Source: Dysgonomonas sp. PH5-45 (GTDB taxonomy: Bacteria; Bacteroidota; Bacteroidia; Bacteroidales; Dysgonomonadaceae). Taken from it: DNA of 64,000 bases. Shown here one piece after another: positions 9,406 through 14,418 of this stretch. Position 1 is the first letter of the stretch. Each line of letters starts with the position of its first letter. A program made the translations under genes and the position numbers. Below the pieces are notes generated by a model. It was not told the origin of the DNA, did no database searches, and worked only from the letters and a program-made list of their open reading frames with translations. The stretch lies in contig NZ_JARXWE010000005.1 of NCBI RefSeq assembly GCF_029893235.1, positions 1-64,000 of the forward strand. Direction: 5' to 3'.

Positions 9406-10614
9406 ATGCTCAAGCCAATACAAATAAAAGAGAATTTATATTACGTAGGTGTTAACGACCGTTCAAAGGAATTGTTCGAAAACCTGTGGCCGTTGCCCAA
9501 AGGCGTGTCTTACAATTCTTATCTGATTGTTGACGAAAAAACAGCGCTCTTCGACACGGTCGATATCTGTTATTCCGACCGTTTCTTTCAAAAACTCGAA
9601 ACGGCTTTAGACGGACGTCAGTTAGACTACGTAGTTATCAATCATATGGAACCCGACCATTCGGGCTCGCTGGGCCTGCTGAAGGCCAAATATCCCAACG
9701 TGCAGGTTGTAGGGAATAAACGCACGGCCGATATGATACAAGGCTTTCACGGAATTACGGACAACGTGATGCTTGTTTCGGACGGCGACCAACTTCCGTT
9801 GGGCAAACACAATCTGGTGTTTTACCTGACACCGATGGTACATTGGCCCGAAACGATGATGACCTACGAAACTACGGATAAGATTATATTCTCGGGCGAT
9901 GCCTTTGGTACTTTCGGCACGCTGGACGGTGGTATTACCGACGCACAATTGCACCCCGAACGATATTACGACGAAATGATTCGTTATTATTCCAACATAG
10001 TCGGTAAATTCGGGTCGCCGGTACAAAAGGCTTTAGAGAAACTTAACAACCTGGACATAAACTATATATGCTCAACACATGGCCCTGTATGGACCTTGCC
10101 TCAACAGATTGAAAAAGTAGTAAACATTTACGACAAGCTAAGCCGCTACGAAGGCAACGAAGGCGTTGTTATAGCCTACGGAACAATGTATGGCAATACC
10201 GAACAGATGGCCGAAACCATTGCGCACGAATTAGCCGTACAGGGAATAAAAGAAGTTATTGTACATAACGTATCCAAGCGTTCAGACTCTTATATTCTCC
10301 GCGATATATTCAAATACCGGGGGCTGATTGTAGGCTCGCCAACATACAACAACAAACTGTATCCCAACATAGAATATCTGCTTTCTAAAATAGAGAGTCG
10401 CGAAATGAAAAACCGCTATTTCGGTTATTTTGGCTCATTCACATGGGCAGGGGCAGCAGTTAAGCGGTTGGCGCAATTTGCCGAAGACACCAAGTTTGAA
10501 GTAGTTGGCACTCCCGTCGAAATGAAACAGTCTATGCAACTTGACAATTACACAGCCTGTGTAGAATTAGGCAAAGCAATGGCTGCCAGATTGATACTCG
10601 ACAGAAAACAATAA
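9406..10614 (+). CDS. Flavodiiron protein (O2/NO reductase)
   Basis: A 402-residue A-type flavodiiron protein that reduces O2 to water or NO to N2O in the cytoplasm of anaerobes. The metallo-beta-lactamase-like domain carries the diiron ligands in the expected order: His80, Glu82, Asp84 and His85 in HMEPDHSGS, His146 (VHWPETM), Asp165 (FSGDAFG) and His225 (STHGPVW). The C-terminal flavodoxin domain starts near 255 with the FMN loop YGTMYGNTEQMAE. No rubredoxin domain is fused, so an external donor is needed. It sits between lgt and an M3 peptidase in one direction with short gaps and serves as an oxygen defence in an anaerobe. Confidence 0.95.
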   Translation: MLKPIQIKENLYYVGVNDRSKELFENLWPLPKGVSYNSYLIVDEKTALFDTVDICYSDRFFQKLETALDGRQLDYVVINHMEPDHSGSLGLLKAKYPNVQVVGNKRTADMIQGFHGITDNVMLVSDGDQLPLGKHNLVFYLTPMVHWPETMMTYETTDKIIFSGDAFGTFGTLDGGITDAQLHPERYYDEMIRYYSNIVGKFGSPVQKALEKLNNLDINYICSTHGPVWTLPQQIEKVVNIYDKLSRYEGNEGVVIAYGTMYGNTEQMAETIAHELAVQGIKEVIVHNVSKRSDSYILRDIFKYRGLIVGSPTYNNKLYPNIEYLLSKIESREMKNRYFGYFGSFTWAGAAVKRLAQFAEDTKFEVVGTPVEMKQSMQLDNYTACVELGKAMAARLILDRKQ

Positions 10615-12767: not shown

Positions 12768-12795
12768 GAACAAATAAAACACATTCATAAACAAG

Positions 12796-12829
12796 AAAGA
12801 GGCATTTCAAAGTTTTGAAGTGCCTCTTT
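12796..12829. terminator. Bidirectional terminator
   Basis: AAAGAGGCATTTCAAA (12796-12811) pairs with TTTGAAGTGCCTCTTT (12814-12829) with one mismatch; the innermost bases form the loop. It sits between the converging M3 peptidase and cytochrome genes. Confidence 0.8.
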
Positions 12830-12856
12830 TGTATTCTAAAACTACGTTGTCACAGC

Positions 12857-13204
12857 CTAAAAATGACGATGTGCAAAAAGAAATCCTATAAGGATAATAA
12901 TGGCTACCAGAAGAACACCCCAAACAGCTTCCCGGCTTACAGTCACTCCCTTGTTTTTTATATAAGCCTTCAATGACCGCCAGTTTGTTACAGTATGCAG
13001 AACAGCCAACACAGCAAAAACAAGCCCTGCCAGAACATGAACAGCCGTGAAAAAGTGTATCGAAACACCTTCTTCAAACCTTTCAAATACCTGAATCAAT
13101 ATTCCTGTAATAATCAGAATTAACAATGTAAGAAACAATCCTATTGACACGAACTTACGTCTGCTAAACGATTTTTTTTGCAATACTTCCATATTTTTTT
13201 TCAT
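12857..13204 (-). CDS. DUF4405-like membrane cytochrome
   Basis: A 115-residue integral membrane protein with three hydrophobic helices (about 18-40, 50-72 and 92-112). Histidines within or near helix 2 (HFFTAVHVLAG, AVLHTVTNW) are suited to bind b-type heme. The pattern resembles DUF4405, the flavinylation-associated cytochrome family, related to cytochrome b561 and formate dehydrogenase gamma subunits. The start codon overlaps the stop of the ferredoxin gene by one base (TAATG), which indicates translational coupling and a joint complex. I infer that it passes electrons between the ferredoxin and the quinone pool or an external acceptor; the partner is not visible. Confidence 0.75.
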   Translation of the reverse strand: MKKNMEVLQKKSFSRRKFVSIGLFLTLLILIITGILIQVFERFEEGVSIHFFTAVHVLAGLVFAVLAVLHTVTNWRSLKAYIKNKGVTVSREAVWGVLLVAIIILIGFLFAHRHF

Positions 13205-13431
13205 TATTGGTGATTAAATACCCCGTAAGGACAAACTTTAATACATTTCTTACAGCCTGTACAATTATCCGAATTTTTGAAAACGACATGTTTATGCCAA
13301 AGAAAACTAACTTTACCGATTACCTGTTTCGGACAGGTTTCCACACACATCCAACATGCTTTGCATTTACGCGGATTCATCCAGATATAAGGGGTTCGTA
13401 TTTTTTTCAATTTATCTGCTCCTTTCACCAT
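13204..13431 (-). CDS. Two-cluster [4Fe-4S] ferredoxin
   Basis: A 75-residue iron-sulfur protein with two complete four-cysteine motifs, CKACWMCVETCPKQ and CTGCKKCIKVCPYG. The start at 13431 (MVKGADKLKK) gives a typical small ferredoxin. An alternative start at 13479 would add a short hydrophobic leader (LLLYFVFNLIQIG) that could anchor it to the membrane; the bases do not decide this. It is the middle gene of a three-gene set: AraC regulator, ferredoxin, DUF4405-like cytochrome. It probably transfers electrons to or from the cytochrome. Confidence 0.85.
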   Translation of the reverse strand: MVKGADKLKKIRTPYIWMNPRKCKACWMCVETCPKQVIGKVSFLWHKHVVFKNSDNCTGCKKCIKVCPYGVFNHQ

Positions 13432-13510
13432 CCCAATTTGTATTAAGTTAAACACAAAGTAAAGTAAAAGAACAGGCATACGAAATGGATAAAAAGAGGC
13501 AAGAATTGGA

Positions 13511-14362
13511 TTATTCGAGGTATTTCTTTTTGAATTGTGTAGGTGATAGTTTGGCTGTTTTAGTAAACAGGCGTGTAAAGTAAGCCCAATCTTCGTATCC
13601 CAACTCCAAAGCAATTTCTTTCACGCTCATGTTTGTGTAGAACAACAAGCGTTTAGCCTGAATCACAATTTCGTTGCGGATATAATTGCTCGCGCTCTGT
13701 TCGGTAGTTTCTTTTACGGCTTCATATAAATACACAGCCGAAATATTCAACTTGGCCGCATACTGCGAAGGGCGCTTCATTGAGCGATAATGAGTTGATA
13801 ATAAATTCTTAAATTTGTATGTGATAACAGCAGAACGTTTGTTTATCGTAGCAGGCAATTCATTTTGATAAACCTCCGCAATCATCCCGATATAAGACGA
13901 AAGCAAATCCCGTAGAATATGTTGCCCTGTGTTTTCACTGCCGGCTTTAAGCCGCTTATAAATAATGGAAGCGCAATTCTTTAAATTGTTAATTGTTTCT
14001 TCATCCGTCTTTACACTGTTTCCTGCCATAACAGACTTTTCAAACACTCCTTTATATTCGTCTCTCACCACCATACTATCAACAGCAAGAAACCAGCCGC
14101 AACCGCTGACACCGGTTCCCGGAAGATGCACTTGTCCCGGCAAAATACAGAAAATGCTTTTCCCGGTTAACTCTTGTTCTTCAAAATCTATCAATACCTT
14201 TCCTTTACCTTCTTCTATCAGCAGAAAAATATAATAATCGTCTCTGTGTGCATAAGTTTTGGAAGGAAGTGTTTGTTCCTTAACCTCCTCCGAGAAATAG
14301 CGCATTTGGGCAATTTCCCCCTGAAAGTGTTCCGATGTTTTACGTGTAGGAATATTGTCCAT
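13511..14362 (-). CDS. AraC-family transcriptional regulator
   Basis: A 283-residue regulator. The N-terminal half (about 1-160) looks like a cupin-type sensing arm, with GKVLIDFEEQELTGKSIFCILPG typical of AraC arm domains. The C-terminal 100 residues hold two helix-turn-helix motifs, the second being MSVKEIALELGYEDWAYFTR followed by FTKTAKLSPTQFKKKY. The start at 14362 is preferred to 14389 because a well-spaced promoter at 14387-14418 overlaps the longer start. It lies upstream of the ferredoxin and cytochrome genes on the same strand, so it probably regulates its own operon. The ligand is unknown. Confidence 0.88.
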   Translation of the reverse strand: MDNIPTRKTSEHFQGEIAQMRYFSEEVKEQTLPSKTYAHRDDYYIFLLIEEGKGKVLIDFEEQELTGKSIFCILPGQVHLPGTGVSGCGWFLAVDSMVVRDEYKGVFEKSVMAGNSVKTDEETINNLKNCASIIYKRLKAGSENTGQHILRDLLSSYIGMIAEVYQNELPATINKRSAVITYKFKNLLSTHYRSMKRPSQYAAKLNISAVYLYEAVKETTEQSASNYIRNEIVIQAKRLLFYTNMSVKEIALELGYEDWAYFTRLFTKTAKLSPTQFKKKYLE

Positions 14363-14386
14363 CAATATATAAAAAAAGATATATTG

Positions 14387-14418
14387 CAAAAATAGGATTT
14401 TTCGATGTATTCCCCAAA
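14387..14418 (-). promoter_or_regulatory. Bacteroidota-type promoter of the AraC-ferredoxin-cytochrome operon
   Basis: On the reverse strand: TTTG (14418-14415), 20 bases, TATTTTTG (14394-14387). The -7 element matches TAnnTTTG exactly. Confidence 0.65.

Follow-up and report, generated by a model that had tools for sequence, protein, structure and literature searches.

Background

In the accessible parts of the published work, haem b spectra are reported for a full-size DUF4405 protein, an Oscillospiraceae member, and for FezC (PMC11334425). The model of the published DUF4405 has six transmembrane (TM) helices with four histidines at their centre, and proteins of this kind occur together with apbE. 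The haem sites of FezC were modelled through homodimerisation (PMC11334425), from which we infer that FezC is half-size. Archaeal arCOG04002/DUF4405 corresponds to about half of a cytochrome b561 and has two histidines (PMC5898192), and SMUL_1540 of Sulfurospirillum has 111 residues, three TM helices and two conserved histidines (PMC7755780). The accessible parts of the DUF4405 literature (PMC11334425, PMC5898192, PMC7755780, PMC12727194, PMC8865925) do not describe a ferredoxin-DUF4405 cassette, and the arrangement reported here was not found described in the literature searched, which also took in accessible parts of PMC10434189.

Such a cassette is present in the window, the stretch of 64,000 nucleotides of Dysgonomonas sp. 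PH5-45 that was analysed (NZ_JARXWE010000005.1, positions 1 to 64,000; host genome 2.65 Mb in 75 contigs). It is real, recurrent and sensor-switched, with parts of known kinds. As a whole it is probably a self-contained outlet, switched by its own sensor, that leads electrons from ferredoxin to the membrane.

Gene content of the locus

Three consecutive minus-strand genes, encoding an AraC-type regulator, a two-cluster ferredoxin and a DUF4405 protein, make up the set (Table 1). The earlier note had read these three reverse genes as one redox cassette, and Pfam assigns all three to the families it named. A GtrA-like gene lies upstream and a converging M3 peptidase gene downstream (Pfam); neither looks like part of the set. 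No Rfam family at gathering score and no tRNA was found within the window. A flavodiiron-type protein (ODP + flavodoxin, Pfam) is encoded on the opposite strand at window positions 9406-10614, about 2 kb downstream of the cassette.

A one-base overlap between the ferredoxin stop and the DUF4405 start had also been described. The TAATG is literally present, but relatives start DUF4405 at the residue that matches ATG 13192, so that the overlap does not hold for the conserved start. From the ferredoxin stop to this start there are 5 nt in L003, L045 and L069 and 11 nt in the window.

Table 1. Features of the regulator, ferredoxin and DUF4405 set, in window coordinates.
Feature	Position	Strand	Basis
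AraC gene promoter: TTTG 14418-14415, 20 bp, TATTTTTG 14394-14387	14387-14418	-	sequence
AraC-type regulator, cupin-like sensor domain and AraC-type HTH domain, 283 aa	13511-14362	-	Pfam
Predicted operator half-site 1 (TCCA-N7-CC), first base directly after AraC stop codon	13498-13510	-	comparison
Predicted operator half-site 2 (TCCATTT...), 21 bp from half-site 1; length drawn by analogy with half-site 1	13477-13489	-	comparison
-7 element TTACTTTG of the putative ferredoxin-DUF4405 promoter	13455-13462	-	conserved columns
Basic 2[4Fe-4S] ferredoxin, 75 aa, net charge +12	13204-13431	-	Pfam, conserved start
Half-size DUF4405 protein, 111-115 residues	12857-13192 (ORF opens 13204)	-	Pfam, conserved start 13192
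Terminator-like hairpin at set end, before the converging peptidase gene	12785-12845	-	-19.5 kcal/mol, z -5.1

Distribution of the cassette

The spread of the cassette is patchy. DUF4405 relatives are found in 16 of 101 genomes of the family and in neither of the two other genomes of the genus, AraC relatives (E 1e-30) in 9 of the 101, and ferredoxin relatives (E 1e-12) at 28 loci in 25 of 393 genomes of the order. The nearest named relatives are Prevotellaceae, Tannerellaceae and Parabacteroides records, plus one labelled Campylobacteraceae. On that Campylobacteraceae-labelled contig (L021:5080-5726) a ferredoxin 60% identical to that of the window accompanies a half-size DUF4405 gene, with no regulator of AraC, Crp or MarR kind beside them; this is either a transfer or a mislabelled contig.

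A search for the trio in other genomes had been proposed, and the set does recur. The order AraC, ferredoxin, DUF4405 is seen in the window, in L003 and L088 (one genome; the L003 AraC has a stop), in L007 and L018 (one genome), in L051, in L045 and L069 (one genome, of another family), in L083, where the last gene is DUF4405-like by BLAST only, and in L015, where AraC and ferredoxin are broken. In L083 (95-1495) the next gene after these is of the Flavodoxin_2 family and NAD(P)H oxidoreductase-like. Ferredoxin and DUF4405 form one open frame in L048, L053, L064 and L067, in L048 behind an AraC gene; of the two fusions run against Pfam, L053 passes the DUF4405 cut-off and L048 fails. In all, 21 of the 28 order-level loci have DUF4405 beside the ferredoxin or fused with it, and seven have the ferredoxin without DUF4405 within the fetched stretch (L046, L047, L050, L052, L055, L071, and L049, which is cut by the contig end). 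Close ferredoxin relatives in L019 (6016-7268), L020 (6067-7230) and L046 (1063-2848) represent a third setting of the same ferredoxin: in place of DUF4405, their neighbours are an ECF sigma factor and a small membrane protein whose tail is MTPEQR-like.

AraC is followed by DUF4405 with no ferredoxin between them in L002 and L082. No ferredoxin of the cassette kind (E 1e-9) was found in G022, G035, G019, G007 or G024, the five genomes searched among those whose DUF4405 gene has no ferredoxin next to it (G019 is 82% complete), and G022 and G035 keep AraC, the repeat described below and DUF4405. Thus, the cytochrome can do without the cassette ferredoxin or uses another. The proposal of a minimal module stands insofar as the cassette is recurrent and self-standing, but the notion of an obligatory pair is weakened by G022 and G035. 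No larger enzyme is present within the set, as had been noted, and none recurs beside the cassette in 27 regions of 9 to 19.5 kb, counting families seen in at least three loci. Apart from the cassette itself, the families reaching that count are LytTR regulators and kinases, integrase-like, sigma-like and membrane-fusion-like proteins (named by eye); integrase-looking genes, also by eye, lie within the fetched part of 4 of 11 AraC regions (L091, L092, L096, L100).

The AraC regulator and the two predicted promoters

The AraC protein belongs to AraC/XylS by its AraC-type HTH domain (HTH_18, 65.7 bits; HTH_AraC is also above cut-off), and AraC_binding scores 28.7. Its start at 14362 is common to relatives, and H39, D41, Y44 and P75-G76-Q77 are invariant in 13 aligned proteins. 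Stop codons interrupt the AraC frame in G033 and, in G055, in one of its two copies. The promoter of the AraC gene is presumably of Bacteroides type (TTTG/TAnnTTTG), and a stretch ATCGAAAA.TCCTAT.TTTGCA likewise lies upstream of AraC in L003. A scan with the sigma-70 consensus, which is uninformative for the host lineage, returned 6 promoter-like sites against 8.4 expected.

One promoter had been suggested for the whole set. However, the 79-bp gap between AraC and ferredoxin holds a second conserved promoter-like element together with an AraC-type direct repeat, so a single promoter for the three genes is not the best reading. The repeat, TCCA-N17-TCYATT with a 21-bp period, begins at the base after the AraC stop; the gaps read TCCA, 21 bp on TCCATTT or TCTATTT and, in most loci, 31 bp further TTTG. 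The columns AraC stop+53 to +56 are T, T, T and G in 16, 16, 14 and 13 of 16 gaps. The strict repeat is found in 13 of the 16 AraC gaps (12 genomes), or in 9 of 12 without the four gaps (L018, L081, L084, L085) that were first placed by the repeat itself; when these four were re-placed by the AraC frame, the repeat began right after the stop in all of them. The strict repeat is absent from L048, L088 and L089; L086 carries it, but no clear TTTG is seen there. Dinucleotide shuffles give 0.0003 strict repeats per sequence, and a spacing of 17 is the only one between 5 and 40 that is found at more than one locus. The AraC loci share descent, as do the Crp loci discussed below, and their gaps therefore do not count as independent cases. 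The same repeat and TTTG also stand right after the stop of a distant AraC relative (L087:1492-2373), where the next gene has no BLAST match to ferredoxin or DUF4405.

In the window, half-site 2 covers the -33 position of the ferredoxin promoter, which reads TTTC there, not TTTG. This points to an activator-dependent promoter layout. The control by AraC that the earlier note had assumed is supported by the conserved predicted operator.

An extended form of the repeat pattern, searched in 8 of the 12 AraC genomes (G033, G014, G006 and G355 were left out), gave 11 matches, 10 at the cassette gap and one elsewhere in G035, against 0 for its reversed control; since the pattern was drawn from these very gaps, what is informative is that other sites are almost absent. 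As the repeat is near-unique in the genome, it looks like a dedicated local switch. A larger regulon was considered and rejected: TCCAN17TCCATTT matches the window's genome 7 times, as often as its reversed control (7), and the extended pattern matches it once, so no regulon is seen.

Regulators upstream of the same ferredoxin are interchangeable to judge from gene order. At the 28 order-level loci the upstream gene is of Crp type in 16 (L062 by Pfam cNMP_binding, the remainder by BLAST to L062), AraC in five, MarR-type in two (L066 and L049, the latter Pfam-confirmed and about 410 bp away) and none of these in five (L046, L047, L055, L067, L071). All 16 Crp gaps carry the palindrome TAACAATTGTTATCG (10 exact, 4 with one mismatch, 2 with two), and in all 16 a TTTG lies 24-25 bp behind it, a count made without a shuffle control. 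Exact TAACAATTGTTATCG is single-copy, at the cassette, in 8 of 8 genomes searched, which were taken from 15 with Crp loci and chosen for an exact cassette site; the reversed control has 1 match, in G196. In this one gap, then, each of two unrelated sensor families seems to have an operator of its own.

It appears very unlikely that the repeat is a relic and that the AraC promoter alone drives transcription of the whole set. The distance is short and the gap has no stable hairpin (z -1.2), which would suit such a single transcript, but the rigid repeat and the TTTG are kept in diverged relatives, even with a different downstream gene or a missing ferredoxin, and the Crp loci have a parallel design. 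Some read-through from the AraC promoter into ferredoxin and DUF4405 may nevertheless occur beside the second promoter.

The ferredoxin

The two-cluster nature of the ferredoxin is borne out by Fer4_7 (39.7 bits) and by two CxxCxxCxxxC motifs, with WHKH between the clusters. Relatives were compared at 39 chosen loci, of which one is broken and four were trimmed from fusions, L024, L066 and distant matches being left out. Both cluster motifs are present in 38 of these (Ser allowed as the fourth cysteine of the first motif), H[KRS]H between the clusters in 37 (the misses are L015, which is truncated, and L067), and the net charge is +3 to +13 (mean +9.0). The G033 ferredoxin is truncated. Elsewhere in the window's genome there are 8 other distinct two-cluster stretches, mostly within larger proteins; their core charges run from -3 to +2, as against +6 for the cassette ferredoxin. 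This count excludes 5 of the 14 other Fer4_7 matches, whose sequences depart from the motif. The one small ferredoxin among the 8 has a net charge of +1 versus +12 for that of the cassette.

It had been suggested that the ferredoxin, if it started at 13479, would have its own membrane anchor. The conserved start is 13431, and the hydrophobic translation from 13479 is T-rich operator and promoter DNA read as protein: this ATG sits at the end of half-site 2 as drawn, upstream of the -7 element. Among 11 loci where a ferredoxin gene follows the repeat (one of these genes is broken), an in-frame stop separates the repeat from the conserved start in 6, and the window is the only one with an in-frame ATG there. 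In place of an anchor, the ferredoxin may dock on the membrane by charge.

A search of solved-structure sequences with the ferredoxin returned 41 sequences, iron-sulphur subunits of several complexes, with the polyferredoxin MvhB as best match and many PsaC; the WHKH stretch is not kept in the four alignments examined. A structure model of the ferredoxin was set aside (mean pLDDT 54.2). In the accessible parts of the literature, TAACAATTGTTA appears in two papers of unrelated title.

The DUF4405 protein

The membrane protein matches DUF4405 (PF14358) at 32.4 bits against a cut-off of 26.7, and falls short of the cut-off for prokaryotic cytochrome b561 (PF01292; 14.9 against 30.1 bits). It has three hydrophobic stretches, modelled as helices, with H56 and H70 in TM2 (numbering from ATG 13204), in keeping with the three-helix, histidine-bearing protein described before. 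Relatives in L021 (26.0), L048 (23.9) and L051 (17.7) fall below the DUF4405 cut-off, and the DUF4405 proteins of L007 and L018 are even smaller and show two hydrophobic stretches instead of three.

The TM2 His pair is present in 43 of 44 aligned rows (one protein counted twice, as L006 = L017), the miss being L054, which is cut by the contig end before TM2. Both histidines are found in all of a first set of 29, of which 25 were picked with strings containing the first TM2 histidine and four were fusions found by the ferredoxin motif, and in 14 of 15 rows added by BLAST match without histidine strings. A second His pair lies in a later helix in 18 of the 29, the longer proteins, and is absent in the 11 half-size ones including that of the window, which accordingly does not have four core histidines in one chain. 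With one His pair, two bis-His haems would require a homodimer, and by analogy with the model of FezC a homodimer is the likely form. In the first set, H50 is found in all 11 half-size proteins and in 2 of the 18 longer ones. Among added rows it occurs in L005, L006, L008, L012 and L066; it is missing in L009, L010, L011, L013 and L016, which lack the second pair too and so rule it out as a mark of all half-size proteins. The frames of L010, L011, L013 and L016 (about 158-160 aa) carry a C-terminal stretch of ~60 residues behind a half-size DUF4405 domain, and in L013 and L016 a Crp-type gene lies upstream of DUF4405.

An AlphaFold monomer (3-row alignment, pLDDT 79.7) has helices at 2-43, 48-73, 75-85 and 91-114. 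A fold search with this single chain gave no match at E 0.001 or better, and no cytochrome b family is prominent among the best 50 fold matches listed per program, which is not informative either way.

Proposed function and alternatives

The cassette most likely moves electrons from ferredoxin to the membrane. Comparison of relatives supports a scheme in which the AraC gene would be read from its own promoter, its product most likely binds the 21-bp direct repeat after its own stop codon, and a second promoter, with its -33 overlapped by the repeat, would make the ferredoxin-DUF4405 mRNA. A small effector on the cupin-like domain may turn AraC into an activator. The basic ferredoxin would take electrons from cytosolic metabolism, dock on the membrane by its charge and pass them to a haem that H70 would hold near the cytoplasmic side; a haem near the outer face, bound by H56, could receive them next and hand them on to menaquinone or an extracytoplasmic acceptor.

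It is unlikely that DUF4405 and ferredoxin are two separate tools, co-induced by one switch and serving different partners. The genomes that keep only AraC and DUF4405 (G022, G035), and the ferredoxins without DUF4405 in L046, L047, L050, L052, L055 and L071, would fit such a division, but the one-frame fusions at four loci and the adjacency of the two genes at most loci speak against it. Rather unlikely, too, is a metal reductase, a half-size cytochrome like FezC or a ferric/cupric reductase that is fed by the ferredoxin, with extra histidines on the outer side, H50 and, close to the C-terminus, H112/H114, handling the metal. FezC, a haem protein resembling DUF4405, is linked to iron storage (PMC11334425), and H50 is shared by the half-size proteins of the first set and by five added rows. 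The neighbours of the ferredoxin relatives in L046, L019 and L020 include an ECF sigma factor as well as a small membrane protein, and L046 further adjoins an apparent heavy-metal efflux gene. Against a metal reductase, H50 is missing in five added rows that have no second pair, His occurs at H112 and at H114 in 5 of 44 rows each, no P-type ATPase is encoded on the window's contig, and no metal gene recurs beside the cassette in the 27 regions.

Returning to an outlet from ferredoxin to the membrane, a broader reading is possible, though held more tentatively: a constant pair of basic WHKH ferredoxin and half- or full-size DUF4405 haem protein may be an autonomous plug-in cassette that passes from genome to genome and comes under unrelated one-component sensors (AraC, Crp-type, perhaps MarR), each bringing its own near-single-copy operator into the gap upstream of the pair. 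In anaerobes, the passage of electrons from ferredoxin to the membrane is generally attributed to large complexes, of which Rnf is an example. If the plug-in reading is true, anaerobes would dump ferredoxin electrons into the membrane or an outside acceptor only upon a given signal. An outlet of two genes and fewer than 200 residues in total, controlled by a dedicated sensor through a near-single-copy operator, would be unusually small for a device of this sort, and would give DUF4405 haem proteins a defined soluble partner.

Comparison with known systems

The archaeal arCOG04002 proteins and SMUL_1540 resemble the window protein, but a dedicated ferredoxin and regulator do not appear in the accessible parts of their descriptions (PMC5898192, PMC7755780). 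With the Oscillospiraceae DUF4405, as far as its accessible description goes, the window protein shares the Pfam match and a His pair in a TM helix, and it differs in its three helices and single TM2 His pair and in coming with a ferredoxin partner and a regulator of its own. FezC, compared by its accessible description only, is part of the ferrosome, whose iron transporter FezB is a P-type ATPase. For the cassette of the window no ferrosome setting was found: the PF00122 matches of the genome lie on contigs C2, C14 and C15 and none on C5, so that no P-type ATPase gene stands next to the cassette or elsewhere on its contig.

AraC binds at araI to a direct-repeat operator with a 21-bp period that overlaps the -33 position. 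The AraC protein of the window shares with the AraC/XylS regulators the domain make-up and a predicted direct-repeat operator with a 21-bp period over -33, and differs from them in having a redox target directly downstream.
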